IMG/VR virus record: IMGVR_UViG_3300020160_000423
Location: 1-34,748 of that record
Reading direction: 5' to 3' (one strand)
Source: a virus
Length of the DNA stretch: 34,748 bases
Within the stretch, counting starts at the first letter, position 1. Every line of letters starts with the position of its first letter. Position numbers and translations under genes: made by a program. Of the stretch, positions 646-20,982 are shown one piece after another. The notes beneath the pieces were generated by a model. It worked only from the letters and a program-made list of their open reading frames with translations. It made no database searches and had not been told where the DNA came from.

Positions 646-1374
646 GTGGCTATATCAAAAAGCATGGACTCTCCAGTTAAAAAATCTAATTATGCTGAGC
701 AGGTAAGTCAGTCTCAAGTTCAAGATAACACTTTATCTTTTCTTCCAGTTCCAGGACCTCAAGGACCGCAGGGGTCTCAGGGAGAAAGAGGATCTCAAGG
801 ACCTCAAGGGCCAAAGGGTGAACAAGGTGAAAAGGGTGATTCAGGCAAAGATGGAAAAAATGGAAAAAATGGTTTAGATGGCAAGAGTGTCTTATCTCCT
901 TCAGGACAGCAGATTGGCTGGGGATATTATCAAAACAAATTATTAAAACAAACAAGAACAGGAATAGACCAAGGAGAAGATGGTTGGGCAACCTTAGTGA
1001 TTTCTGGCGCTGGACCAAAGACCAATGAGAAATATCTACCAAGAGGACATGTTTCTTTGTGGAATGACAATACTAAAAGACTAAATTTTAAAACCCTTGA
1101 GATAGGCTCTATTGTAACGGTTCGTTATAATATTTCTTTAACGACATATGCTAACAATACTGAGGTTTGGATGAGAACCTTAATGTCAGATGAGGATGAG
1201 TGCCCCACTCAATATATAGGAAATTTAAAGTATCAATATGACTATGACTTTTCTGTAAACCAGCAACTCTTTGTAAATGGTCCAGAGTCTCAAAATTTTG
1301 GTGGGATACCACAAATAAGAACAGATAATCCCTGCGAAGCAATCATTAAGTCTATCTACATATCTGTTTCGTGA
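646..1374 (+). CDS. Collagen-like tail fibre/adhesin protein
   Basis: 242 residues. Residues 37-81 form 15 uninterrupted Gly-X-Y triplets (GPQGPQGSQGERGSQ, then GPK, GEQ, GEK, GDS, GKD, GKN, GKN, GLD, GKS), typical of trimeric collagen-like rods in phage fibres. A Ser/Gln-rich N-terminus precedes them. A roughly 160-residue C-terminal domain rich in Trp, Tyr and Asn looks beta-structured and is probably the globular tip. Pro occurs only in the X position; Lys occurs in Y in two triplets. The start is GTG at 646, 4 nt after the stop of the 27-residue ORF, with no good Shine-Dalgarno (coupling likely). ATG at 664 is an alternative. Its stop TGA doubles as the TGA of the next extended -10. It is a candidate substrate for the hydroxylase-like enzymes downstream. 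Confidence 0.7.
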   Translation: MAISKSMDSPVKKSNYAEQVSQSQVQDNTLSFLPVPGPQGPQGSQGERGSQGPQGPKGEQGEKGDSGKDGKNGKNGLDGKSVLSPSGQQIGWGYYQNKLLKQTRTGIDQGEDGWATLVISGAGPKTNEKYLPRGHVSLWNDNTKRLNFKTLEIGSIVTVRYNISLTTYANNTEVWMRTLMSDEDECPTQYIGNLKYQYDYDFSVNQQLFVNGPESQNFGGIPQIRTDNPCEAIIKSIYISVS

Positions 1375-2373: not shown

Positions 2374-3102
2374 ATGGCAGCAGAAAATATAGGAGAGTTA
2401 GTTCCAACAAAAGTTCCAGGGTATGCAGACTCTGCCGACATTCAGGCAGCCCTTAGACTTTATCATTACGGGTCATACACCTTTGATATTAATGAAGACG
2501 ATCCCGCACAACTTGTTAACCCGTCTATAGCATATAAACTTAACAGTTTAGAAGATCAGATTGACAACATTGATCTTACTTCAGCAATCTTGAAGACAAA
2601 TTTAAATGCAAAGGGAGATATTATCTCTGCTTCTGCAAATGACACATTATCAATTTTGTCTTTAGGAACTAATGGACAGGTTTTGTCAGCAAATTCTGCA
2701 ACAGCAAATGGTCTTGAGTGGTCAACACCAGACGTTACACTTTTAAATACAGTAACATTAGTAAATAAAACGTTAACATCTCCAGTAATAAATGTTTCAT
2801 TTAACCAACAAACTGCAACATCTTATAGTTTGGCTTTATCTGATAATGGTAAAATTATTGAAGTTTTAAACTCTTCACCAATCACAGTTTCAGTTCCAAC
2901 AAATTCAACTGCATTTCCAATTGGTGCACAAATAACAGTTATTCAAACTGGTACTGGACAAATTACCTTTGCAGCAACCACACCAGGAACAACTACTGTA
3001 AATGCAACACCAGGTTTAAAATTGAGAGCACAGTGGTCATCTGCAGTATTGATTAAGCGTGATACAGAGCAGTGGGTAGTTCTTGGAGACTTAGTTGCCT
3101 AA
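2374..3102 (+). CDS. Short tail fibre with conserved C-terminal head domain
   Basis: 242 residues. Residues about 1-65 look like an attachment segment, followed by fibre-type repeats (DTLSILSLGTNGQVLSANSA, TLVNKTLTSPVINVS) of the kind that build trimeric beta-helical shafts. The last 90 or so residues (TSYSLALSDNGKIIEVLNSS through AQWSSAVLIKRDTEQWVVLG) match the C-terminus of the 638-residue fibre at 16872-18788, including PIGxxIxVxQTGxGQ, TPGLKxRAQWSxxxLxKR and a terminal GDLxA. That end is probably a receptor-binding or trimerisation head. The stop overlaps the following ATG by one base. Confidence 0.75.
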   Translation: MAAENIGELVPTKVPGYADSADIQAALRLYHYGSYTFDINEDDPAQLVNPSIAYKLNSLEDQIDNIDLTSAILKTNLNAKGDIISASANDTLSILSLGTNGQVLSANSATANGLEWSTPDVTLLNTVTLVNKTLTSPVINVSFNQQTATSYSLALSDNGKIIEVLNSSPITVSVPTNSTAFPIGAQITVIQTGTGQITFAATTPGTTTVNATPGLKLRAQWSSAVLIKRDTEQWVVLGDLVA

Positions 3103-3566
3103 TGTCAAAAATTGGACCAATATCATCTTCTGACGGGCGCAAGCCAGGAACACCAACAATTGGAACTGCTGTTGCAGGTACAAACGAAGCAAGTATTACT
3201 TTTACATCACCAGCATATACTGGTAAACCAAATACTTCTTTAACATATACCGCAAAATCTTCTCCATCAGACATTGTTGCAACGGGTTCATCTTCTCCAA
3301 TTGTTGTAACTGGATTAAATGCAACCACAGCATACACCTTTACTGTTAAACTAAATAACACGGTTATGGACTCAGATTTTTCTTCATCTTCAAACTCAAT
3401 TACACCTACAGCACCAGGACCATTCTTTCCACCCTCATTTGGACCATTCTTTCCTCCATTCTTCCCATTCTTCCCATTCTTCCCTCCATTTTTCCCATTC
3501 TTCCCATTCTTCCCTCCATTTTTCCCATTCTTCCCATACTTTGCATTTGAAGCAACTAGAAGATAA
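3102..3566 (+). CDS. Fn3-domain protein with C-terminal Phe-Phe-Pro repeat tail
   Basis: 154 residues. The start is the ATG at 3102 (TAATG overlap with the fibre gene). Residues about 15-103 form a fibronectin type III-like domain (GRKPGTPTIGTAVAG, IVVTGLNATTAYTFTV, SNSITPTAP). From about residue 106 the chain is almost entirely Phe and Pro in PFFP/PPFF units and ends YFAFEATRR. At DNA level the tail includes two and a half copies of a 30-nt unit around 3460-3540. The protein at 3615-4142 has the same architecture and the same final motif. Fn3 domains are common accessory folds on virions; the Phe-Pro tail is not a known domain to me. It could be a hydrophobic anchor or an extended rod, and its Pro residues are conceivable hydroxylation sites. 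Confidence 0.7.
   Translation: MSKIGPISSSDGRKPGTPTIGTAVAGTNEASITFTSPAYTGKPNTSLTYTAKSSPSDIVATGSSSPIVVTGLNATTAYTFTVKLNNTVMDSDFSSSSNSITPTAPGPFFPPSFGPFFPPFFPFFPFFPPFFPFFPFFPPFFPFFPYFAFEATRR
3454..3540 (+). repeat. 30-nt tandem repeat coding for Phe/Pro units
   Basis: Within the Phe-Pro tail of the first Fn3 gene, a 30-nt unit (three TTCCC-type 9-mers plus TTT, coding FPFFPFFPPF) occurs more than twice with no substitutions. It is built from a 9-nt sub-repeat TTCCCATTC. Perfect repetition suggests recent expansion by slippage or recombination. Confidence 0.7.
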
Positions 3567-3614: not shown

Positions 3615-4142
3615 ATGCAAAACATAGGAATAACAGACTCCCAAGATGGCCGTAAGCCAGATGCACCAATTATCGGATCAGCAACAGGCGGTAATGCACA
3701 AGCAGAAGTTACTTTTACTGCTCCATCATTTACTGGTAAGGGAACTGGTACACTAACATATACTGCCACATCAAACCCAGGTGGTATTACAGGAACGGCA
3801 TCAGGTTCTCCTGTAACGGTGACTGGTCTTGCAAATGGAACAGCATATACATTTACAGTTACACTAAGTAACGGAACACTTACATCAAATGATTCTTCTG
3901 CATCTAATGCAGTTACTCCAGTTGCTCCTCCATTTTTCCCACCATTCTTCCCAGCATTCGGTCCATTTTTCCCACCATTCTTCCCACCGTACTTCCCGTT
4001 CTTCCCACCGTACTTCCCGTTCTTCCCACCGTTCTTCCCATTCTTCCCGTTCTTCCCACCATCATTCCCGTTCTTCCCACCTTCATTCGGTCCATTCTTC
4101 CCGTTCTTCCCATACTTCGCTTTTGGAGCAACTAGAAGATAA
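3615..4142 (+). CDS. Fn3-domain protein with C-terminal Phe-Phe-Pro repeat tail (second copy)
   Basis: 175 residues, a paralogue of 3102-3566. Both begin with xxIGxxxSxDGRKPxxPxIG, share the Fn3 body (about residues 14-102, ending VTVTGLANGTAYTFTVTLS and NAVTPVAP) and finish YFAFxATRR. The tail from about residue 105 is longer here (about 70 residues against 49), with PFFP, PPYF and PPSF variants. Codon choice differs (CCG/CCA mix), so the tails are expanding independently. The start lies 6 nt after TGATATAAT and has no Shine-Dalgarno, implying a leaderless transcript, whereas the first copy is coupled to the fibre gene. Function unknown; likely displayed on the virion. Confidence 0.7.
   Translation: MQNIGITDSQDGRKPDAPIIGSATGGNAQAEVTFTAPSFTGKGTGTLTYTATSNPGGITGTASGSPVTVTGLANGTAYTFTVTLSNGTLTSNDSSASNAVTPVAPPFFPPFFPAFGPFFPPFFPPYFPFFPPYFPFFPPFFPFFPFFPPSFPFFPPSFGPFFPFFPYFAFGATRR
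3924..4120 (+). repeat. Phe/Pro-coding tandem repeat tract
   Basis: About 200 bp of TTCCC-based repeats, including an 18-nt unit coding FPPYFP that occurs twice near 3985-4020 and several TTCTTCCCACC/TTCTTCCCGTTC variants. It encodes the tail of the second Fn3 protein and is homologous in protein sequence, though not in exact period, to the tract at 3454-3540. Confidence 0.65.
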
Positions 4143-4170: not shown

Positions 4171-4746
4171 TTGTTGAATCATATTAATGTAGTTAAAAAC
4201 TTTCTTGAGCCTGAAGATATTAATAAGTTGATATCTTTTATGGATAACAATATAGAAAAGTTTTTGGTATATCAAAATGATACAAGATATGTCTGGAGAT
4301 TTGGACATGATAACTTTTGGGAAGACTGTAAAAAAGACTTAACTCCAATTGCTGAAATCAAAGATATTCTTGAAACAAAAATTTTTAACAATATGTTAGA
4401 AAAAATAAAAGAATTTTATAACGAAGACAGGGTTATTTCTAGTTTTTGGATATCAAAGCATGAGCCAGGATCTAAAGTTCCTATACATGAAGACACCGAC
4501 GCTGGCAGCAATTCACATTTTTCTCATAGTGCAGTTTTATATTTAACATCTCTTGAAAATGATGGAATTCTTCATTTCCCTTTTGTTAATTTTAGTTATA
4601 CCCCAGTTGCTGGAGAATTATTGCTTTTCCCATCAAAATCTATAGACTTTGATCATCAATTTATGCATGAGGTACAAGAAATAAAAAGCACAAGGTATAG
4701 TATTGCTATTTGGGCATCTACAGAGGAATACTCTTTATATGAATAA
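4171..4746 (+). CDS. 2-oxoglutarate/Fe(II)-dependent oxygenase (divergent, island gene 1)
   Basis: 191 residues, a double-stranded beta-helix dioxygenase of the prolyl 4-hydroxylase-like superfamily. Iron ligands are visible as H106-E-D108 (VPIHEDTD) and H166 (FMHEV), with R175 nine residues later placed to bind the 2-oxoglutarate carboxylate. Unlike the seven other oxygenases here it lacks the YLNDDYEGGE signature and has YLTSLENDGILHFP instead. It is also not overlapped with the next gene, so it stands apart from the main operon. The start is TTG at 4171 or, better spaced from the GGGG of AAAGGGG, TTG at 4174. The substrate is unknown. Confidence 0.75.
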   Translation: MLNHINVVKNFLEPEDINKLISFMDNNIEKFLVYQNDTRYVWRFGHDNFWEDCKKDLTPIAEIKDILETKIFNNMLEKIKEFYNEDRVISSFWISKHEPGSKVPIHEDTDAGSNSHFSHSAVLYLTSLENDGILHFPFVNFSYTPVAGELLLFPSKSIDFDHQFMHEVQEIKSTRYSIAIWASTEEYSLYE

Positions 4747-4773
4747 ATTAAATTTTGCTTAAAATTAGCAATG

Positions 4774-4782
4774 TGATATAAT
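4774..4782 (+). promoter_or_regulatory. Extended -10 promoter driving the oxygenase operon
   Basis: TGA TATAAT ends exactly 17 nt before the GTG at 4800. A TTGCTT at 4755-4760 lies 16 nt upstream as a plausible -35. The gap holds AGGGGGA as ribosome binding site. It is the only extended -10 seen between 4747 and 12026, so it probably serves about 7.2 kb of coupled genes. Confidence 0.6.
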
Positions 4783-4799
4783 TAAAAAAAGGGGGAATC

Positions 4800-5483
4800 G
4801 TGAATTCTTTAGAAGCAAAAGGTATTACTTTCAAAGATCTTGGTAGTGGGATTATTGTGTATAGCAACGTCTTGCCAAGAGGTTTAAATATTCCAGAAAG
4901 ACTAGAAAATGTCCTTGAGGGCAAAGAAAATATGGTCAATGGAAACGCCATTAGATATGCATGGCAGCCAGCATATGTTGGATATCAAGAACTTATGCCA
5001 GATTACAGAGACTGCGTAGACTTTAAGTATAAGAAGAGCGATCTATATGATGATGGAACCGAAGAGTATAAAAAACTTGCCGAAATTTGGGATGACTGTT
5101 ATAACAATCAAAAGGAAGTAGTGGATCATTATTGTGCAAAGTTTAATATTCATAACCTAAGATATTGGGAAGCATTTAATTTTATTAAATATGAAAAGGG
5201 AGATCACTTTCAGTACCATCACGATCATGGTTTTTCATATAACTGTACAGTATCGCTTGTAGGATATCTTAATGATGACTACACTGGTGGAGGACTACAC
5301 TTCCAGCATCAGGATATTCTTTATACGCCAGTTGCAGGGGATGTGGTAATATTCCCATCAACATACATGTATTCACATAGAGCAATGCCAGTAAATGATG
5401 GAACTAAGTATTCTCTAGTTACAATGCTTGATTATAGTGATAAATATCATAACCCTAAGTTTTATCAAGAAACTGGATCATGA
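4800..5483 (+). CDS. 2-oxoglutarate/Fe(II)-dependent oxygenase (P4H-like, module copy 1)
   Basis: 227 residues. The iron site is H140-H-D142 (YHHDHG) and H193 (YSHRAMP); K203 takes the place of the usual Arg that anchors 2-oxoglutarate, as in prolyl 4-hydroxylases of the collagen type. The strand signature is GYLNDDYTGGGLHF. It is clearly paralogous to 6208-6927: both have RDCVDFKYK, a YxEAFNFxKYE strand, HG-x-x-YNCTVS and IFPSxYxYxH. The GTG start follows AGGGGGAATC. The stop overlaps the next gene's ATG (ATGA). It is the first gene of the operon and pairs with a DUF6065-like protein. Probably hydroxylates a protein or small-molecule substrate; the substrate is not deducible. Confidence 0.85.
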   Translation: MNSLEAKGITFKDLGSGIIVYSNVLPRGLNIPERLENVLEGKENMVNGNAIRYAWQPAYVGYQELMPDYRDCVDFKYKKSDLYDDGTEEYKKLAEIWDDCYNNQKEVVDHYCAKFNIHNLRYWEAFNFIKYEKGDHFQYHHDHGFSYNCTVSLVGYLNDDYTGGGLHFQHQDILYTPVAGDVVIFPSTYMYSHRAMPVNDGTKYSLVTMLDYSDKYHNPKFYQETGS

Positions 5484-6208
5484 GCAATATAATTAGATTT
5501 GTTTCTAATAAGCCTGGTCTAACAAATGAGTCTACATCTGTTCCATCTCCAATAATGAAAACTATTCCAGAATGGTATAGGAAAGCAGACAGATTTGCTA
5601 AAAAGTTAGATGGGACATTTTGGAAGGGACCAGACAATGGAAAAGTTCCTACCTGGAAAGCATGTCCAGCAATCTTTGATATTATGGGCACAGGATATAC
5701 ACTAAAAACTCCATGCGATATAGAGTTTATAGAAAAAGATTCTAAAACACTTTCAGTTACAATATATGATTCACAGTATAAAGAGTTTTGTACTCCAAGA
5801 CAAAAAATGCCTCAGTTTGAAAACCCTGCAGGCTATCATGAAAGTCATTTTGCTTGGTTTCCAGACTGGGGGATTGAAACTCCAGAAGGGTATAGTGTAT
5901 TGTATTCACAGCCATTCAATAGGTTTGAACTCCCTTTCCTTACAACATCTGGAATTATAGATAATGATACTGTCAACCTTTTGGGATCAATGCCATTTTT
6001 TATAAGAAAAGGTTTTTCTGGAGTAGTACCAGCAGGAACCCCATTTGTTCAGTTAATTCCTTTTAAAAGAGAAGATTGGTCATCTGAGATTGTTATTGAA
6101 GATGAAAAAATAATGTATAATAAAAATAAAACAAACTCTATGAAGTATAGGGTGCCTGATGGCGGAGTATATAAAAATGAAGTATGGAAACCTAGGAGGT
6201 ATGAATAA
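5480..6208 (+). CDS. DUF6065-like protein (module copy 1)
   Basis: 242 residues. A distant paralogue of 6924-7667: both have a W(Y/M)-containing N-terminal strand (IPEWYRKA versus KRDWMDET), then C-P...GY/W-S/T-L-x-x-x-x-D-I-x-F (GYTLKTPCDIEF versus GWSLSCTEDIRF), then a C-terminal AGTxxxxxIP strand (PAGTPFVQLIPF versus KAGTVIATIIPI). The second copy looks closer to what I recall of DUF6065, so this assignment is by analogy. It is beta-rich, with no signal peptide or membrane segment and no obvious catalytic triad. It overlaps the oxygenase before it by 4 nt and the one after it by 1 nt, with AGGAGGT ahead of the next start. It may be a partner or substrate-presenting protein for the oxygenase. 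Confidence 0.6.
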   Translation: MSNIIRFVSNKPGLTNESTSVPSPIMKTIPEWYRKADRFAKKLDGTFWKGPDNGKVPTWKACPAIFDIMGTGYTLKTPCDIEFIEKDSKTLSVTIYDSQYKEFCTPRQKMPQFENPAGYHESHFAWFPDWGIETPEGYSVLYSQPFNRFELPFLTTSGIIDNDTVNLLGSMPFFIRKGFSGVVPAGTPFVQLIPFKREDWSSEIVIEDEKIMYNKNKTNSMKYRVPDGGVYKNEVWKPRRYE

Positions 6209-6927
6209 TGAATGTTTACGATGAAAATGATAATCACTGGTTTACAAAAGATAGATCAGAAACTACATCAACTAGAGTCGGTAGATCACTTAATGAAAAG
6301 GTAACTGTTGAAAACCCAGGTCTTGGGTTAAATATATATAGAAACACATTTTCTTCTGAAGATGCAAAAAGATATATAGATACACTTGAGTCAAACTTAT
6401 CACAAAATAAAAAGTATAACTGGTCCGAAGCAAAAGTTACTAATTCTGATGTTGCAATTAAAAAAGCAAGAGATTGTGTAGATTTTAAATATAAGCAAGA
6501 AAATTTAGGACCAAGAGACGAAACAAATTCAGAACTCATAGATTTGCATCAAGAGATATACGAAAAACTAAAGATGTGCATAGATGATTATGCCAGATAT
6601 TGGGGAATAGAAGTTGTTTATTACGAAGCCTTTAACTTTGTAAAATATGAGGGAGAAGGAACACACTTTAATATCCATGCAGACCACGGTCCAGCATATA
6701 ACTGCACAGTTTCTGCTGTTATATATATTAACGATGATTATGAAGGTGGAGAAATCAAGTTCCCAAGACTAGATAATTACGTTCATACGCCAAGAGTTGG
6801 AGATATTGCAGTATTTCCTTCAAACTATATTTATGAACATGCATCTCTTCCAATGAAGTCTGGCACAAAGTATTGTGTTGTAATTATGACTGATATTAAT
6901 AAGTTAGGGCATAGAGATCATCAATGA
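6208..6927 (+). CDS. 2-oxoglutarate/Fe(II)-dependent oxygenase (P4H-like, module copy 2)
   Basis: 239 residues, homologous to 4800-5483 over nearly the whole length but with a 30-residue N-terminal extension. Iron ligands are H157-A-D159 (NIHADHG) and H211 (YEHASLP); K221 (GTKYCV) is the 2-oxoglutarate anchor. The strand signature is YINDDYEGGEIKFP. It has an excellent AGGAGGT 7 nt upstream and a 1-nt TAATG overlap with the preceding gene. It ends in an ATGA overlap with its own DUF6065-like partner, repeating the gene order of the first module. Confidence 0.85.
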   Translation: MNVYDENDNHWFTKDRSETTSTRVGRSLNEKVTVENPGLGLNIYRNTFSSEDAKRYIDTLESNLSQNKKYNWSEAKVTNSDVAIKKARDCVDFKYKQENLGPRDETNSELIDLHQEIYEKLKMCIDDYARYWGIEVVYYEAFNFVKYEGEGTHFNIHADHGPAYNCTVSAVIYINDDYEGGEIKFPRLDNYVHTPRVGDIAVFPSNYIYEHASLPMKSGTKYCVVIMTDINKLGHRDHQ

Positions 6928-7667
6928 TTAATTTATCCGTTGAAAAAATGATGGGATGTCCAATTATAATTTCACCAATGTCTATTAAGAGAGACTGGAT
7001 GGATGAAACTCCACAGGGCCATGCCTATAGATGCTTTCCAGTAGGACAGGCAAATATGGTTGGCTGGAGTCTTTCATGTACAGAGGATATTCGTTTTATT
7101 TGGAACGGAATAAATGACACAAGTTCTGAGACAGTTAAGATTCTAGATGAAAAGCAATACCTATATACTGGTCGTGGGCAATCTACAATAAGTTTTAGTA
7201 CTGGACTAGTGTTTAGATCAGAAGAAGATATTAGTTTGCTTACTATCAATCCAGTAAATTCTTTTAATGAAGATTTTGAAACAATGTCGTCATTAATTAG
7301 TACATCTTTTTATGATAACCCAATTCCTTTAGCAATTAAGGCAAGGGTGCCAAATAAAGAGGTTATTATAAAGGCAGGAACGGTTATCGCAACCATAATT
7401 CCAATATCCCTTACAATGCTAAATAATACTGCAATTGACATTATTGACTACACTGACATTGACCAGAAACGTCAAACAGCAAACAAGGAGTATGGTGAGG
7501 CAGCACAGGTTATTAATCAGACTGGAAAGTGGACCGATTGGTATAGAGATGCAGTAAATGAAAAAGGGGAGTCGATTGGTCGACATGAAGCAAAAGCCTT
7601 AAAGTTATCAGTTATAGATAATACATCATTTCAAAACAACTACATCCTAGAGAAAAAAGAGATATAA
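6924..7667 (+). CDS. DUF6065-like protein (module copy 2)
   Basis: 247 residues. The N-terminal half has KRDWMDETPQGHAYRC followed by N-x-x-GWSLSC, the pattern I associate with DUF6065 family proteins (R-x-W-M-D-x-TP, AYRC-P, N, GW). Residues about 145-165 hold KAGTVIATIIPI, and the last 70 residues are charged and helical (QKRQTANKEYGEAAQVINQT). It overlaps the upstream oxygenase by 4 nt and is followed 4 nt later by the next oxygenase. It is a distant paralogue of 5480-6208. The biochemical role is unknown. The repeated pairing with a P4H-like enzyme is the main clue. Confidence 0.65.
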   Translation: MINLSVEKMMGCPIIISPMSIKRDWMDETPQGHAYRCFPVGQANMVGWSLSCTEDIRFIWNGINDTSSETVKILDEKQYLYTGRGQSTISFSTGLVFRSEEDISLLTINPVNSFNEDFETMSSLISTSFYDNPIPLAIKARVPNKEVIIKAGTVIATIIPISLTMLNNTAIDIIDYTDIDQKRQTANKEYGEAAQVINQTGKWTDWYRDAVNEKGESIGRHEAKALKLSVIDNTSFQNNYILEKKEI

Positions 7668-7671
7668 TGTT

Positions 7672-8352
7672 ATGATGAATACTAATCAAGAAATGAAAGT
7701 TGTAAAAAGAACAGCATCACTTACCCCATCTGGATTTTTTGGCAACAGTCCAGACATGATTGTTGAATTAGAGAACTTCATGACTCAAGAAGAGATTGAG
7801 TTTTTAGAGGCTGCTGCCAAATCAATTACTATCTGGGATGTCACAGAAAGCCATGTTAATGAAAATGGCACTGTTGTCTATGATGCTGGATACTGGAAAG
7901 ATCGTGTTGCATCACAACCTTCTTTAGATAAAAATGATCCAGCAATCTCTCCAGTAATTGCAGGTTTGTTTAAAAGACTTCAGCCAATTGTTGAAGAGTT
8001 TTATAAGGTTAAGGTAGTCCCAACTGGAACGACTATTGTTAAGTGGCTTCCAGGACAATTTCAAAATCCACATGCAGACAAAGAACTTCACGAAGGTCCA
8101 GATGCTGGAACACCTAATGATTTTCCCAACTACGATCTTTCAAGTTTGTTTTATTTAAACGATGACTATGAAGGTGGAGAACTATATTTCCCATTGCAGG
8201 GCGTACAGTTTAAGCCAAAGAAAGGCGCTGCATATTTCTTCCCAGGAGACAAAAACTATATTCATGGAGTCACAGAAATAAAGAGTGGACTCAGATTTAC
8301 ATGTCCGTTCTTTTGGGAAATTACAGAACATACAGGTGATAGAAAGCCATGA
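7672..8352 (+). CDS. 2-oxoglutarate/Fe(II)-dependent oxygenase (Arg type)
   Basis: 226 residues. HxD is H134-A-D136 (NPHADKE), the distal ligand is H198 (YIHGVTE) and R208 (SGLRFTC) binds 2-oxoglutarate. The core signature YLNDDYEGGELYFP is intact. A charged insert between the HxD and the next strand (KELHEGPDAGTPNDFPNYD) may shape substrate entry. Starts at 7672 and 7675 are both possible. The second is 6 nt after a TATAAT at 7663-7668 that lacks the TG extension, so a secondary leaderless start cannot be excluded. It ends in an ATGA overlap with the next gene. Confidence 0.85.
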   Translation: MMNTNQEMKVVKRTASLTPSGFFGNSPDMIVELENFMTQEEIEFLEAAAKSITIWDVTESHVNENGTVVYDAGYWKDRVASQPSLDKNDPAISPVIAGLFKRLQPIVEEFYKVKVVPTGTTIVKWLPGQFQNPHADKELHEGPDAGTPNDFPNYDLSSLFYLNDDYEGGELYFPLQGVQFKPKKGAAYFFPGDKNYIHGVTEIKSGLRFTCPFFWEITEHTGDRKP

Positions 8353-9221
8353 CAGAAAGAGTCCTAGAGGCAGTTGAAATATATCCGAATATTCTTGTAT
8401 ATAAGAATATGTTTAAGGATATATCAAAATCCTATAAAGTTTTAACAGATTCTTTGGTTGAAACAGAAGATAGAGTTTTTAGTCCTTGGAGTCAGTGGTC
8501 TATTTTTGGAGAGTATCTAGATCCAATAACACCAACATTTGGTATGAACGATAAATATGGAAACTTACAAAATATTCAAACAAATACCCCAACCCAAGAA
8601 GATCAAAAACAATTTGGTCTAGAAATGATGGAAAACTTTCATTTAGTTACAGAAGACTACATCAAAAGGCATAATGTAGAAGTAGATTTTGATGCAAGGT
8701 TTCTTGACGAACACGACTACTCTCTTCCAGTATGGCGATGGTCTGGCGGAACAATTGGAAAGTATCATGTAAGCACTGACACGCAAGAGCATGGAATGAG
8801 ATACCATTCAGACTATATGGCAGAGCAGGCAGATGCTCCAGGATACAAGTTCGTAATAACTTGCACTATCTATTTTAACGACGACTATGAAGGCGGGGAA
8901 GTTGATTTTGTAATGGGGGACAAACTTGTAAAATATAAGCCAGAAGCAGGAGACATGCTTGTTTTCCCATCAGGACATCCAGACTACTTAACAGAAGATG
9001 GAAAACCATACCTACATGGTGTAATGCCAGCATATAAGAAAAATAAATTTTTAGCAAGAATGTACTGGCAGAAATACCAAAGAGGAACAGATGAGTGGTA
9101 TGAAAAAGAAAAAGAGTTTGGAAAAGATGTTTGGGCCAAGATGCAGCCAGAACTAGAAAAAGCATTTAGAGCAAAATATCCACAAAGAAACGAAATAAAA
9201 AATGGAGTGAGACTACGATGA
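8349..9221 (+). CDS. 2-oxoglutarate/Fe(II)-dependent oxygenase (Lys type, long form)
   Basis: 290 residues, the longest of the set. The iron site is H153-S-D155 (RYHSDYM) and H223 (YLHGVMP), with K233 at the anchor position. The signature is YFNDDYEGGEVDF. An N-terminal region of about 130 residues with many aromatics (FSPWSQWSIFGEYLDP) and a roughly 50-residue charged helical tail (DEWYEKEKEFGKDVWAKMQP) extend beyond the usual domain. It overlaps both neighbours by 4 nt (ATGA), so it is tightly coupled in the operon. Substrate unknown. Confidence 0.85.
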   Translation: MTERVLEAVEIYPNILVYKNMFKDISKSYKVLTDSLVETEDRVFSPWSQWSIFGEYLDPITPTFGMNDKYGNLQNIQTNTPTQEDQKQFGLEMMENFHLVTEDYIKRHNVEVDFDARFLDEHDYSLPVWRWSGGTIGKYHVSTDTQEHGMRYHSDYMAEQADAPGYKFVITCTIYFNDDYEGGEVDFVMGDKLVKYKPEAGDMLVFPSGHPDYLTEDGKPYLHGVMPAYKKNKFLARMYWQKYQRGTDEWYEKEKEFGKDVWAKMQPELEKAFRAKYPQRNEIKNGVRLR

Positions 9222-9964
9222 ATCTAAAAAATAAAAAGAGAATTACTAAAGATATCGTTATATACGAAAACTTCCTTAGTGATGAAGACTGCCAAAAAAT
9301 GATTAATGCATTGGATGCACAGGCAGAAAATGGAAAAATTTCTTGGATGCCAATATCGTTTTATGAGTCATACTCTTCTGTTTTGCCACAAGACAACGAT
9401 CAGGAAATCATTGATGCTGGATTAGCACCAACAATTTTTTCAGATATTGAAAACACTATGCCAGAAGCAATTGCCTCAGTTCATGATCTAGACCCAAAAA
9501 CAATTTCTAAGATTGGGTATCATACTCAAAAATGGGAGCCAGGGGCATATGCAAGAGTTCATTCAGATAACACAGATGAAAAGGGTAACTCTGGAGCATT
9601 TACAAGAAGTAGATATGCAGGGTTTTTATATTTAAACAATAACTTTGAGGGTGGTCTTCTTAGGTTTCCAGACCAAGATATAGAAATTCAACCGCAAACT
9701 GGAATGCTTGCTGTTTTTGACGGGGGATTTAGTAATATGCACGAAGTGACAATGATTACAAGTGGTGTAAGATACACAATTGGCTCATTCTGGGATGACC
9801 GTGAAGAAGATGCCTATCCAGAAGAACTCAGAGCACAGTGGAAAGAAGAAATGCAAAAGATTAGAGATGCTCAAAAGGTTGAAAAAGAAGAGTGGCAAAA
9901 ACTTCTAAAAGATGGATATAAGTTGGATCTTAATGGCAAACCATATAAGGTTGAGGAGTTATAA
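9218..9964 (+). CDS. 2-oxoglutarate/Fe(II)-dependent oxygenase (Arg type)
   Basis: 248 residues. HxD is H115-S-D117 (RVHSDNTD), the distal ligand is H175 (NMHEVTM) and R185 (SGVRYTIG) binds 2-oxoglutarate. The signature is altered to YLNNNFEGGLLRFP but is still recognisable. The last 55 residues are a highly charged helix (EELRAQWKEEMQKIRDAQKV) that could be a coiled coil or an interaction tail. The start overlaps the previous stop by 4 nt. GAGGAG near its end serves as the ribosome binding site of the following gene. Confidence 0.85.
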   Translation: MNLKNKKRITKDIVIYENFLSDEDCQKMINALDAQAENGKISWMPISFYESYSSVLPQDNDQEIIDAGLAPTIFSDIENTMPEAIASVHDLDPKTISKIGYHTQKWEPGAYARVHSDNTDEKGNSGAFTRSRYAGFLYLNNNFEGGLLRFPDQDIEIQPQTGMLAVFDGGFSNMHEVTMITSGVRYTIGSFWDDREEDAYPEELRAQWKEEMQKIRDAQKVEKEEWQKLLKDGYKLDLNGKPYKVEEL

Positions 9965-9967
9965 TAA

Positions 9968-10627
9968 ATGGAAACTTTTTTAAAAAAGCAACTAGAGGAT
10001 AATGGGTTTAAGGTTGAAGAGCCAGTAGATCAAGTCATTATTGTAGAAGACTTTTTATCTAAGGATGAACTAGATTCTTTGCATAGCATTATTAACAGTC
10101 TGTCGGAAGACGACTGGATGATAGAATATACAAAAAATCTTAAAAGGTTTTGTATGGAAAAGTTTGGAAGAGATGATGTTGAAAATCTTGTTGCTGAAGG
10201 AAAGTTTGAAATAACTCAAGGATGGCAAGATAAAAATTATGATCTTGCGTCAGAGCCAGTTACTAGAAATGTTATAGAAAGACTAGATAATTTAGTTGCA
10301 TTAGTAGACCCAAAATTAGAGGCAAGTGGGCTAAAAACTTTTCAAAGAATGCAAGACGGGGTTGAACTAAAAGCCCATACAGACCAGCATACCGATCCAT
10401 CTATTAATTATGCAACTATTATTTATCTAAATGATAACTATAATGGTGGAGAACTATTCTTTAGCAATAAGGACTTACAGTTAAAGCCAAAGCCAGGATC
10501 TTTAGTTATTTTTCCTGGGACAGATGAGTTTAATCATGGAGTAAGACATGTAGAGCCAGGACCAATTAGATATGTGCTGGTTGGATTTATAAAAGTTAGA
10601 AATTTTTATGAAAAGAATAAATACTAG
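9968..10627 (+). CDS. 2-oxoglutarate/Fe(II)-dependent oxygenase (Arg type)
   Basis: 219 residues. HxD is H137-T-D139 (KAHTDQH), the distal ligand is H190 (FNHGVRH) and R201 binds 2-oxoglutarate. The signature is YLNDNYNGGELFF. It has a second HTD at 141-143 directly after the first, so the ligand pair could be read as either; alignment with the paralogues favours the first. The N-terminal 60 residues are helical and acidic. It lies 3 nt after the previous stop and 15 nt before the next start, with a GAGGAG Shine-Dalgarno. Confidence 0.85.
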   Translation: METFLKKQLEDNGFKVEEPVDQVIIVEDFLSKDELDSLHSIINSLSEDDWMIEYTKNLKRFCMEKFGRDDVENLVAEGKFEITQGWQDKNYDLASEPVTRNVIERLDNLVALVDPKLEASGLKTFQRMQDGVELKAHTDQHTDPSINYATIIYLNDNYNGGELFFSNKDLQLKPKPGSLVIFPGTDEFNHGVRHVEPGPIRYVLVGFIKVRNFYEKNKY

Positions 10628-10642
10628 GAGAGTGGAGACAAA

Positions 10643-11347
10643 ATGAATAAGCAGATAATCGAAGAAAAGATCTACTACTATGAAGATGGTGTTAAGAATT
10701 TTGATACACTAATGCAGACAATTGATGAACTTGACGCTCTTGATAAGGAGTATGGCAAGGAGTCTTGGCTAGACTGGACAGCATCAAACGATAAAAACTT
10801 TATTTATGGTAAAACAAAAAGTTTTGATATTGATCAAATTAATAATATAACTTTGGATTCAGACTATAAGGCAAAAATGAAATATGTGTATGACACTATC
10901 ATGGAGTCTTTCTATGAGGTTTCTTCAGACTATGCCAAGTCAATTGGTGATAATGATGAGCCAAGACTATTTCCAACCTTTAATATTAAAAAGTATAATT
11001 CTGGAATTGGGATGGGGTCTCATTTTGACCAACTAGACGGAGATAAAACTCTTAGATACTCTCTTGTTATGTATTTAAATGATGATTTTGACGGAGGAGA
11101 AATATCTTTTGCACTATCAGACTATGAGGATGTTAAGAAGGTTGCCTCTCCAGACCTTGACTATGATGTTGCAGTTAACAATGGCCAGATAGCGTTTGGT
11201 CTAAAGCCAAAGGCAGGAAGCGTAATAATCTTCCCATCGTCAGCGCCATATTATCATACAGCACATGTTGTTAAGACTAACTTCAAGTATATGGTTCCTG
11301 GACACTGGATTCATAACGATATGGCACTACACCAGTCATCGATGTAG
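10643..11347 (+). CDS. 2-oxoglutarate/Fe(II)-dependent oxygenase (Lys type)
   Basis: 234 residues. HxD is H127-F-D129 (GSHFDQLDG), the distal ligand is H205 (YYHTAHV) and K215 (TNFKYMV) is the anchor. The signature is YLNDDFDGGEISF, followed by an insert of about 30 residues (DYEDVKKVASPDLDYDVAV) before the strand that leads to LKPKAGSVIIFPS. The Shine-Dalgarno AGGAGAGTGGAG precedes the start. It is the last oxygenase of the array and is followed after 10 nt by the dehydrogenase. Confidence 0.85.
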   Translation: MNKQIIEEKIYYYEDGVKNFDTLMQTIDELDALDKEYGKESWLDWTASNDKNFIYGKTKSFDIDQINNITLDSDYKAKMKYVYDTIMESFYEVSSDYAKSIGDNDEPRLFPTFNIKKYNSGIGMGSHFDQLDGDKTLRYSLVMYLNDDFDGGEISFALSDYEDVKKVASPDLDYDVAVNNGQIAFGLKPKAGSVIIFPSSAPYYHTAHVVKTNFKYMVPGHWIHNDMALHQSSM

Positions 11348-11357
11348 TCTATAGTTT

Positions 11358-12026
11358 ATGAAAACGGCAGTAGTAACTGGGGCAAGTAAGGGTGTTGGTA
11401 AAGCAACCGTTAGACTTTTATCAAGTAATGGGTATAAGGTAATTGCAGTATCTAGAAATTTAGAAAAAATGCTTGAGTTGGAATCTGACAATGTTGATAT
11501 TTATCAACTTGATATAACAGACTCAGCACAGGTTAAAAAGTTTTTTGAAAAATATCAAGATATCACGTTAGACCTTCTTGTTAATAATGCTGGTGGTGGA
11601 GCAAGTCCTACACACATTATTAATGAAACCCCTGAAAATTTTAGGACAGCGTATGACATCAATGTAACTGGACCAATGTACATATCTCAACTATTTGTTC
11701 CTTGTCTACAAAGATCAACCTCACCAACTATTGTATTTGTAACTTCAATAGGAGGAAATGTACCCTATCCAGGTGGTGGAAACTACACAAATGCTAAAAG
11801 AGGAGAAATAGGTCTTATCGAAACAATGAGGCTTGAGTTTCCTTTATATGGAATAAAAATAACAGAAATATGTCCAGGAACTATTGATACCCAAGAAGAA
11901 AAAAAAGACAATGCCTTGAGTGCTGAGGACTTGGCTCAATCTATACTTTGGGTGTCTTCTTTGCCAAGTCACTTTAATGTTAATAGCCTAAACATTAGTC
12001 ATATCAATAACTCAGTTTTTAGGTAA
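11358..12026 (+). CDS. Short-chain dehydrogenase/reductase (SDR)
   Basis: 222 residues, a classical SDR. The nucleotide-binding motif TGASKGVG is at residues 7-14, NNAG at 76-79, and the catalytic residues are S130 (VTSIGG), Y143 and K147 (YTNAK). SRN at 32-34 after the second strand suggests NADP(H). It has PG (ICPGTIDT) and ends without a membrane segment. It is somewhat short for the family (usually about 250), lacking part of the C-terminal substrate loop. It is the last gene of the oxygenase operon, before a bidirectional terminator. It may oxidise or reduce a hydroxylated product made by the upstream enzymes. Confidence 0.85.
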   Translation: MKTAVVTGASKGVGKATVRLLSSNGYKVIAVSRNLEKMLELESDNVDIYQLDITDSAQVKKFFEKYQDITLDLLVNNAGGGASPTHIINETPENFRTAYDINVTGPMYISQLFVPCLQRSTSPTIVFVTSIGGNVPYPGGGNYTNAKRGEIGLIETMRLEFPLYGIKITEICPGTIDTQEEKKDNALSAEDLAQSILWVSSLPSHFNVNSLNISHINNSVFR

Positions 12027-12066: not shown

Positions 12067-12618
12067 TTATTTTGGAAACTTCTGCATCCAAGCCTTAGTC
12101 TTTGGAGTCAAGCCTTTCCATGCAGACCAATCTGTTCCGCCGTCACTCATGTAATATGCAATTTCAGCGTTAGTTACTGGATTTAATAGATCAAAGTTTG
12201 TTCTAAGATTAAACTTATCACGACGATCTGGACCTAGGTCATCAATCATATTGATCTGGAATAACCCATAGGAGTTATCGCCTGTTTTTGTATTTCCGTT
12301 AAATCTAATAGGTTGGCCATTAGACTCTTTCTTTGCTATCGCCCATGCCTCAATTAGGTCACGACCTTCGAAGCCCACTGCCTTTAGAACCAACACCAAA
12401 TCCATATCGGATAGGGTTGGGGCATTTGAATACTTATCTAGTATTTTTGTCTTAGAAACCAAAAAAGCCGACTTAGGGTCGGCAGGGGTTGTCAAGGACT
12501 TTTCACTTAGTAAGTTATTATCAGTTGTAGTTGTTAGCGCATTGGCAGAATTACTTACAGGTGCAAGCAATCCAACTAATGATAGGATTCCAATCCAAGC
12601 CATCTTGTCTCTTCTCAT
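12067..12618 (-). CDS. Secreted lysozyme/transglycosylase-like cell-wall hydrolase
   Basis: 183 residues, the only minus-strand gene in the window. A Sec-type signal peptide covers residues 1-27 (MRRDK, hydrophobic core, then ANA before the cleavage site). Residues about 65-183 resemble lytic transglycosylase/lysozyme-like folds: E98 in AIAKKESNG fits the catalytic Glu, followed by NSYGLFQIN (115-123) and a terminal DWSAW (163-167). An AGGAGGT ribosome binding site lies at 12625-12632 on the complement. It has its own promoter and terminator, so it is expressed separately from the structural genes. Possible roles are lysis, modification of the wall of an infected cell, or a lysogeny-type moron; a holin is not seen nearby. 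Confidence 0.75.
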   Translation of the reverse strand: MRRDKMAWIGILSLVGLLAPVSNSANALTTTTDNNLLSEKSLTTPADPKSAFLVSKTKILDKYSNAPTLSDMDLVLVLKAVGFEGRDLIEAWAIAKKESNGQPIRFNGNTKTGDNSYGLFQINMIDDLGPDRRDKFNLRTNFDLLNPVTNAEIAYYMSDGGTDWSAWKGLTPKTKAWMQKFPK

Positions 12619-18948: not shown

Positions 18949-20982
18949 ATGTCAGAAACCGTATTCTCTTTTCGTCTTTCAGATGAATTTGTAAATAAAT
19001 ATAACAACACTCCAGCCCCATTTGGATTCTCAGATGCAGGGTCTAACTCATTAGGAGAGATTACTTTTATTCGTACATATTCTCGTGTTAAGGAAGATGG
19101 AACTAAGGAACGCTGGCATGAGGTTTGCCGTCGTGTAATCGAGGGTATGTATTCAGTACAGAAGAATCATGCTAAGGATAATCGTCTGCCATGGAATGAT
19201 AACAAGGCACAGAAGTCTGCTCAAGAAGCCTTTCAAAGAATGTTTGAATTAAAGTGGACTCCCCCAGGTCGTGGTCTCTGGGCATTTGGAACTCCTATGA
19301 CTATGGAGAAGCGTAACTCTGCTTCCCTACAAAACTGTGCTATGGTCTCTACTCGTGACATTGATAGAAACGATCCAGGAGCCCTTTTTGCCTGGGTGAT
19401 GGATGCTTTGATGCTGGGTATTGGAGTAGGCTTTGATACCCTTGGACAAGACAAGCAGATGTCTATCTATGCACCTACAGAGCCAGTCTCAGTCTACGAA
19501 ATCCCTGATACTCGTGAGGGATGGGTAGAGTCTGTTCGTATTTTGATCAATTCATTTTTGCGTCAGAATCAACCAATTCAAGAGTTTACCTATGACCTTA
19601 TCCGCCCTCTAGGAGCCCCTATTAAGGGCTTTGGAGGCGTTGCAAGCGGTCCAGCACCACTTATTGATCTCCATACACGCATCCGTAATGTAATTGGCTC
19701 TAGAGCAGGAGATGCCCTTGATAGCCGTGCTATTGTAGACCTTGTTAATCTTATTGGTACCTGTGTGGTATCAGGAAATGTTCGTCGTTCTGCAACCCTT
19801 GCATTAGGTACTGCAGAAGATGATGGTTTTATTAATCTTAAGAACCCAGAAGTATTTCCAGAGCGTAACTCATATGATCCAGCAAAACCAGGTTGGGCAT
19901 GGATGAGTAATAATTCTATTTCTGCTGAAGTTGGAACAAAGTATGAAGACTATGTTGATCTAATTGCAGATAATGGTGAGCCAGGTTTTATTTGGCTTGG
20001 AGTTGCTCGTGACTATGGTCGCCTTGCAGATGCACCAGACTATAAAGATGCTCGTATCATGGGATTCAATCCATGTGCAGAGCAACCGCTTGAATCTTAT
20101 GAACTCTGCACACTAGTAGAAGTTCACCTTAATCGTCATGAGTCAAAAGAGGATTTCTTAAAGACTCTTAAGTTTGCATATTTGTATGGCAAGACTGTGA
20201 CTCTCATGCCAACACATTGGCCAATTACAAACGGCATTATGCAACGTAATCGTCGTATTGGTACATCACTTACAGGTATTGCTTCATTTGCAGACGAGAA
20301 CGGCCTTCCAGTTATTCGTGAATGGATGGATGAGGGATATAGCACAATTCGTAAATATGATCATTCATATTCAGAATGGCTTTGTGTTCGTGAGTCAGTC
20401 CGTGTAACAACAGTTAAGCCATCAGGATCTGTTTCACTTCTTTCTGGTGCTACTCCTGGAGTTCACTGGGGACCTGGAGGAGAGTTCTACCTTCGTGCTA
20501 TTCGTTTTGGTAATACAGACCCAATGATGCATTTATTTAAAGCAGCGGGATATAAAATTGAAGACGATTTAGTATCAGCAAATACCTCAGTAGTATATTT
20601 CCCAGTAGCATCAGGACATAAGCGTTCTGAAAAGCAGGTTAGCCTATTTGAAAAGATTGGTTTGGCAGCAACTGCTCAGAAGTACTGGTCAGATAACGGT
20701 GTTTCTGTAACGCTTTCATTTGATAAAGAAACTGAAAAGAAGTTTATTGCTCCTGCCCTAAATATGTACGAAGGACAACTAAAAGCAGTTTCATTCCTAC
20801 CAATGGGAGACAAGGTTTATCCTCAGCAACCATACTCAGAAATCACAAGAGAAGAATATAACGCATATGTAGGTAAGATTGGTAAGATTGACTGGTCTGC
20901 TATTTATGACGGTATAGAAAATCTTGAGGCTGCTGGAGAAGCATACTGCTCAACTGATGCTTGTGAGATTAAGTTTTATTAG
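18949..20982 (+). CDS. Adenosylcobalamin-dependent ribonucleoside-triphosphate reductase (class II, monomeric)
   Basis: 677 residues; reduces ribonucleotides to deoxyribonucleotides with vitamin B12 coenzyme. The active-site layout matches the Lactobacillus leichmannii enzyme: C130 (LQNCAMV) and C387 as the redox pair, C376 as thiyl-radical residue and E378 in NPCAEQPLESYELC (spacing 2 and 11, as in C408/E410/C419), and a C-terminal shuttle pair C667-x4-C672 (YCSTDACEIKFY), as in C731/C736. It has TPPGRGLWAFGTP and VSGNVRRSA as further family motifs. It is somewhat shorter than the 739-residue reference. Arg is mostly CGT, unlike the oxygenase island. It stands alone between a terminator and the LamG-like gene with its own promoter, and ensures a dNTP supply independent of oxygen. 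Confidence 0.95.
   Translation: MSETVFSFRLSDEFVNKYNNTPAPFGFSDAGSNSLGEITFIRTYSRVKEDGTKERWHEVCRRVIEGMYSVQKNHAKDNRLPWNDNKAQKSAQEAFQRMFELKWTPPGRGLWAFGTPMTMEKRNSASLQNCAMVSTRDIDRNDPGALFAWVMDALMLGIGVGFDTLGQDKQMSIYAPTEPVSVYEIPDTREGWVESVRILINSFLRQNQPIQEFTYDLIRPLGAPIKGFGGVASGPAPLIDLHTRIRNVIGSRAGDALDSRAIVDLVNLIGTCVVSGNVRRSATLALGTAEDDGFINLKNPEVFPERNSYDPAKPGWAWMSNNSISAEVGTKYEDYVDLIADNGEPGFIWLGVARDYGRLADAPDYKDARIMGFNPCAEQPLESYELCTLVEVHLNRHESKEDFLKTLKFAYLYGKTVTLMPTHWPITNGIMQRNRRIGTSLTGIASFADENGLPVIREWMDEGYSTIRKYDHSYSEWLCVRESVRVTTVKPSGSVSLLSGATPGVHWGPGGEFYLRAIRFGNTDPMMHLFKAAGYKIEDDLVSANTSVVYFPVASGHKRSEKQVSLFEKIGLAATAQKYWSDNGVSVTLSFDKETEKKFIAPALNMYEGQLKAVSFLPMGDKVYPQQPYSEITREEYNAYVGKIGKIDWSAIYDGIENLEAAGEAYCSTDACEIKFY

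Follow-up and report, generated by a model that had tools for sequence, protein, structure and literature searches.

Aquatic phages very commonly carry genes for 2-oxoglutarate/Fe(II)-dependent (2OG-Fe(II)) oxygenases, and several marine phages have many diverged ones each: 24 open reading frames (ORFs) in the cyanophage S-SCSM1 (PMC9602691), up to five genes in T4-like cyanophages (PMC3037559), eight non-orthologous genes, described as "not adjacent", in pelagiphages of the HTVC023P type (PMC9599517), and three or four tandem genes just before the tail-fibre genes of cyanophage S-RIM50 (locus L089, 6738-9132). According to a 2022 study, the functions of viral 2OG-Fe(II) oxygenases had not been specifically investigated until then (PMC9602691). 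We analysed a 34,748-base fragment of an uncultured virus (IMG/VR record IMGVR_UViG_3300020160_000423, positions 1 to 34,748; hereafter the window), in which eight oxygenase genes lie in an ordered cassette at positions 4171-11347, next to proteins with proline/phenylalanine (P/F) repeats. An earlier note on this DNA had called the array extraordinary. Its copy number has precedents, with 24 ORFs in S-SCSM1, but an ordered, coupled and widely conserved block is unusual: the ORF numbers of S-SCSM1 are scattered, and no P/F repeat tract was found in the S-RIM50 stretch, unlike in the window. Our literature search found no report of an ordered array, a P/F repeat partner or phage hydroxyproline. 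What is new here is the ordered array and its repeat partner, many 2OG-Fe(II) genes per phage being already known, and a defined partner makes the substrate question directly testable.

Prolyl 4-hydroxylases (P4Hs), such as collagen P4H, Chlamydomonas P4H-1 (3gze), vCPH of PBCV-1 (5c5t) and the Bacillus anthracis enzyme (3itq/5hv0), share with the window enzymes the Fe and 2OG ligands, the fold (as modelled for oxygenase B) and a repetitive proline-rich partner. Those systems use one or few enzymes on G-X-Y or Ser-Pro partners, whereas the cassette brings together seven or more distinct orthologues, DUF6065 proteins and a short-chain dehydrogenase (SDR) beside an x-F-(P)-P partner, with a predicted activity. 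The hydroxylase of the giant virus Mimivirus is paired with the virus's own collagen. This lysyl hydroxylase (6ax6/6ax7) is likewise virus-encoded and of the same superfamily, but the window comes from a tailed bacterial phage, where collagen loci are not the linked partner.

An ordered cassette of P4H-like oxygenases

Ten + strand genes, of which nine are tightly coupled, occupy positions 4171-11347; eight encode oxygenases and two (C and E) encode other proteins. With the gene that follows them, they are:

Oxygenase A: 4171..4746, + strand; TTG start; PF13640 2.6e-8; HxD/H/R
Oxygenase B: 4800..5483, + strand; PF13640 9.6e-13; core member, retained even in small cassettes
DUF6065-like protein C: 5480..6208, + strand; phrog_7084 4.7e-36; halovirus homologues
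Oxygenase D: 6208..6927, + strand; PF13640 1.7e-10; B paralogue, with B in the tree
DUF6065 protein E: 6924..7667, + strand; PF19541 3.5e-27; core member
Oxygenase F: 7672..8352, + strand; PF13640 1.4e-8; core member
Oxygenase G: 8349..9221, + strand; PF13640 2.1e-9
Oxygenase H: 9218..9964, + strand; PF13640 4.2e-9
Oxygenase I: 9968..10627, + strand; PF13640 5.4e-14
Oxygenase J: 10643..11347, + strand; PF13640 2.0e-9
SDR: 11358..12026, + strand; PF00106 7.6e-42; usually closes the cassette in relatives, position conserved

All eight oxygenase ORFs passed the PF13640 (2OG-FeII_Oxy_3) gathering cut-off of 27, with 35.1-53.4 bits. Their alignment has 11 invariant columns, among them the His and Asp of HxD and the distal His, and the 2OG anchor position is R or K in each of them, confirming the ligand sets that the earlier note had read. 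When a profile of all eight was compared with known structures, the best match was the B. anthracis P4H (4e-15), followed by P3H1, viral and algal P4H, and EGLN1, with TET-like enzymes far lower. The AlphaFold2 model of B (predicted local distance difference test, pLDDT, 89.8) is nearest to Pseudomonas putida P4H, to PHD2 and to algal P4H with bound (Ser-Pro)5; these top PDB matches are prolyl hydroxylases with a double-stranded beta-helix, which supports that fold for B, as the note had asked of a structure prediction. Among 2OG enzymes of known structure, prolyl hydroxylases come nearest to the eight, and Pfam, the profile and the B fold all support their description as P4H-like. In a P4H test against NCBIfam, no model reached its own cut-off for the oxygenases. 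At 4171-11347, plain 2OG oxygenases are matched by PHROGs families that bear the labels "DNA endonuclease (V)" (phrog_2297, phrog_274) or, in the case of phrog_3531, "ferrochelatase"; these labels look like errors that have spread into phage annotation.

From B to J, adjacent genes share 1-4 bases or lie no more than 15 bases apart, while the A-B gap is 53 bases, and the coupled run extends past J into the SDR gene. The array had first been described as eight oxygenases in a row, seven of them in a coupled operon. All eight are present and the B-to-J coupling holds; however, they are not contiguous, as C and E are interposed, A stands apart, and the run also takes in C, E and the SDR gene. A promoter scan gave no more sites than were found in shuffled sequences.

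In a tree, the oxygenases fall into eight separate orthologous groups and are diverged rather than identical copies, as had been noted; B and D cluster with each other, as would be expected if B had been duplicated. Searching with gene G retrieved 137 stretches of uncultured viruses that encode a relative of it, from which 80 loci were retained; here and below, some loci share sequence or contigs, which makes the counts only partly independent. Nearly all of these loci carry several oxygenases in one run, most of them 5-11, and the same gene order recurs in scores of contigs, a recurrence that the earlier note had asked to look for in related genomes. The common order is D-C-B-E-F-G-H-I-J-SDR. 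The lineage of the window has B and D swapped and an extra A, which was seen nowhere else (L008, L070, L179/L458, L139 and L163). In the 79 loci where the cassette lies between a repeat protein and an SDR or ribonucleotide reductase (RNR) gene, seven oxygenases are present in 43 and eight in 16 (range 4-11), and a single 114-kb contig has 13 PF13640 matches overall. The ratio of nonsynonymous to synonymous substitution rates (dN/dS) is 0.01-0.27 per cassette gene, indicating purifying selection. A near-DNA search with the array gave no match. An assembly artefact is ruled out by a second contig (L008), which from A into H matches the window at 100% identity, and by the scores of syntenic contigs, and chance is ruled out by the Pfam scores and the purifying selection.

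The two non-oxygenase genes belong to the DUF6065 group: E scores 95.8 bits against a DUF6065 (PF19541) cut-off of 26.6, while C has no Pfam match and joins the group through phrog_7084. The AlphaFold2 model of E (pLDDT 92.6) has a beta-clip fold like that of trimeric dUTPases. The likeness is one of fold only, as Pfam finds no dUTPase family on DUF6065 proteins and the best dUTPase-type match of the DUF6065 profile in the PDB, Wsv112, is marginal (E = 0.095). Because DUF6065 proteins accompany B even in small cassettes, they may be helpers of B/D-type enzymes. E-type DUF6065 had no match in 50,697 phage records, and no functional report on the family was found in the literature.

A P/F repeat protein linked to the cassette

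The phage encodes tail-type proteins with long x-F-(P)-P tracts, one or two per genome, and the P4H-like oxygenases, DUF6065-type proteins and SDR follow just downstream in conserved order. The window has two such proteins:

Repeat protein 1: 3072..3566, + strand; weak FN3-like domain (fn3 E = 0.0021, below the Pfam cut-off), followed by a (F/Y)F-P(P) tract; translation more probably begins at the in-frame ATG at 3102
Repeat protein 2: 3615..4142, + strand; weak FN3-like domain (fn3 E = 7.5e-4, below the cut-off), then a 69-residue P/F/Y-rich tract

An example of these tracts is FFPPFFPAFGPFFPPFFPPYFPFFPP. The stop of repeat protein 2 lies 28 bases upstream of oxygenase A, and we propose this protein as the candidate substrate. 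In most relatives, a homologue of repeat protein 2 directly precedes the cassette, and repeat protein 1 also recurs on its upstream side. Repeat protein and cassette occur together in two genomic settings, one after a collagen-like fibre gene, the other after another fibre gene and before an RNR gene.

To measure this linkage independently of the enzymes, we scanned viral contigs with a DNA pattern for PFFPPFFP, which returned at least 119 stretches. Loci were scored if they had three or more repeats in frame and a further 3 kb of downstream sequence, and an oxygenase was counted if it lay on the same strand and started within 3 kb. Among the matches listed, a downstream oxygenase was found in 44 of 52 repeat loci, compared with 1 of 41 collagen-repeat controls (Fisher p = 6e-17), and the repeat loci contained 350 oxygenases in 1.05 Mb, compared with 10 in 1.08 Mb of collagen loci. 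The converse search agreed: 40 of the 41 cassettes found through G and having 2 kb upstream carry a P/F/Y-rich ORF there (the 41st, L083, has one elsewhere on the contig), as do 44 of the 45 found through B, including six with variant repeats such as PFFPNFCPSFCP, the exception being L466. No P/F/Y-rich tract was found in any locus of the collagen or random sets. In cellular genomes the repeat occurs in at least 117 stretches, as single matches in those listed, and among these the same system was found only in L421, a contig assigned to a Verrucomicrobiales metagenome-assembled genome that is probably viral, judging by its fibre genes. In this distant case the gene order is PASTA-repeat protein, F (38%), B (42%), DUF6065 (27%), and three TauD-family oxygenases (PF02668) come after this core (L421:243-2886).

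The domains that anchor the tract vary. Most repeat proteins have FN3, others PASTA, a fused S74 tail-spike chaperone (L147) or a putative Ig domain (L193), and the oxygenases adjoin several of these types. Those of the window have only the weak fn3 matches and weak tail PHROGs; the S74 chaperone was seen in a single relative. L421 and the variety of anchors together mean that what recurs is the tract with the F-B-DUF6065 core, not a fixed anchor domain. One repeat protein (L175:2791-4128) has an intein/Hint-like C-terminus (Pfam 7.9e-5, below the cut-off), and those of L012 and L013 end in a similar way (..VHNK). Between repeat protein and cassette, L020 encodes a small cysteine-rich DUF6171 protein (4232-4495), and similar small ORFs are present in L047 and L054.

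The tracts consist of aromatic doublets, FF or YF, split by P or PP. The doublet YF is frequent, and its reverse, FY, is practically missing. The repeat unit, taken over 189 tracts, is x-F-(P)-P, where x is mostly F or Y and at times S, H, T or A, with ~10% of the units out of register. As the second F and the last P are constant, they would be the likeliest targets.

Proposed modification of the tract and its alternatives

From the enzyme class and the linkage, we infer the substrate and the chemistry: the probable target of hydroxylation by the cassette is a virion tail protein, in its repeat tract. This reading also draws on the joint retention of repeat protein and cassette in two genomic settings, on a tract that persists while the anchor domains change, and on the order kept in L421. 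During infection, the oxygenases would act on the tract, most likely on prolines and possibly on the constant phenylalanine, each taking its own residue, register or already modified unit. A DUF6065 protein could aid the B/D-type oxygenases, for instance by holding the peptide, and the SDR may carry out a further oxidation of a hydroxyl. The tract, very hydrophobic and stiffened by its prolines, would in this way become a soluble, displayable or adhesive tail element. The earlier note had left the enzymes either a substrate each or sequential action on one, and a single shared repetitive substrate appears to fit better than eight unrelated ones. It had also looked to fibre peptides; a fibre or tail target is likely, but the partner is the P/F repeat protein and not the collagen-like fibre.

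More tentatively, the locus might represent an undescribed class of phage system, in which an x-F-(P)-P virion protein is rewritten by a dedicated oxygenase cassette, enzymes and repeat grammar co-evolving, into a hyper-hydroxylated polymer-like tail element. If hydroxylation of the tract is confirmed, phage virion biology would gain a dedicated hydroxylation of one of its structural proteins, and there would be a new repeat biomaterial with its own hydroxylase set and a first role for DUF6065.

Several observations weigh against hydroxylation of the tract. Linkage shows shared function, which does not by itself make the tract the substrate. Neither the collagen nor the random control set was matched for phage lineage, 8 of the 52 repeat loci have no nearby downstream oxygenase among the matches listed, and the L466 cassette has no recognised repeat protein. 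The predicted structure covers one of the eight oxygenases (B), and the dUTPase-like fold of DUF6065 gives no hint of a peptide role. Of the 92 loci with D, 91 have single-P junctions alongside PP, and all 13 loci without D have PP only; by plain count this match has p = 1e-15, but on the B+E tree it reduces to 2-3 changes, giving two independent pairs in the same direction (p = 0.5). The covariation, as expected of a repeat-reading enzyme, is a lead and only suggestive, and was rejected as proof after this correction for kinship. As a separate observation, L466 encodes sulfotransferase, Asp/Asn beta-hydroxylase-like and methyltransferase-like genes upstream of its cassette (489-2431).

Action on the host instead of the virion is unlikely. 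The enzymes would then be metabolic genes whose products lower 2OG or act as hydroxylases of host proteins. A proposal of this kind exists for cyanophages, whose enzymes were given a 2OG/NtcA role (PMC3037559), and bacterial P4Hs can indeed act on EF-Tu (4iw3 is such a complex). Bulk 2OG use, however, poorly explains why seven orthologous enzymes should keep their order and their tie to a single repeat protein. NtcA is a regulator of cyanobacteria, while the hosts here are likely actinobacterial, given a major capsid protein nearest to those of Streptomyces phages (43%) and WhiB in 7 of 12 long related contigs.

More doubtful still is DNA or nucleotide modification by TET/JBP-like enzymes, with the DUF6065 fold handling nucleotides and the nearby RNR as supplier. 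An RNR gene does follow the cassette in many relatives, and in the window we take the gene at 18949-20982 to be one, recognised by eye from its homology; it lies inside the structural module and is 81-95% identical in relatives. Yet RNR adjacency shifts with the genomic setting while the repeat protein stays, and the cassette sits among tail genes. The Tet_JBP matches of F (2.1e-4) and I (0.14) are weak, their 21.0 and 11.9 bits missing the TET/JBP (PF12851) cut-off of 34.9, and TET structures score far under P4Hs. The resemblance of the DUF6065 model to dUTPases would suit nucleotide handling, but Pfam assigns these proteins to no dUTPase family.

It is very unlikely that the main substrate is the neighbouring collagen-like fibre, with the P/F repeat protein a mere neighbour:

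Collagen-like tail fibre: 646..1374, + strand; PF01391 5.4e-9; tail-fibre PHROGs; absent near the cassette in the second genomic setting

P4H and lysyl hydroxylases modify collagen in other systems, and this ORF lies 2.8 kb upstream of the cassette, as similar ones do near many relatives' cassettes. With an adjacent oxygenase in 1 of 41 collagen-repeat loci, however, it is unsupported as the linked partner, and L013, L020, L032 and L047 have the repeat protein but no collagen ORF within 3.6 kb upstream.

Release of the modified tract as a small molecule, in the manner of ribosomally synthesised and post-translationally modified peptides (RiPPs), is hardly credible: a precursor next to many tailoring oxygenases recalls RiPP clusters and the intein/Hint-like C-termini of some repeat proteins could cut, but the L147 repeat protein is fused to an S74 tail-spike chaperone, others have FN3 or PASTA domains and a place in tail modules, and the genes examined include none with a recognised exporter or leader-binding domain.

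Surroundings of the cassette

Downstream of the SDR gene, the window has a gene whose position is conserved in one genomic setting:

Lysozyme-like gene: 12067-12618, opposite strand; SLT_3 6.3e-14; conserved after the SDR gene in that setting

The low GC content and the phage group suggest a freshwater habitat.

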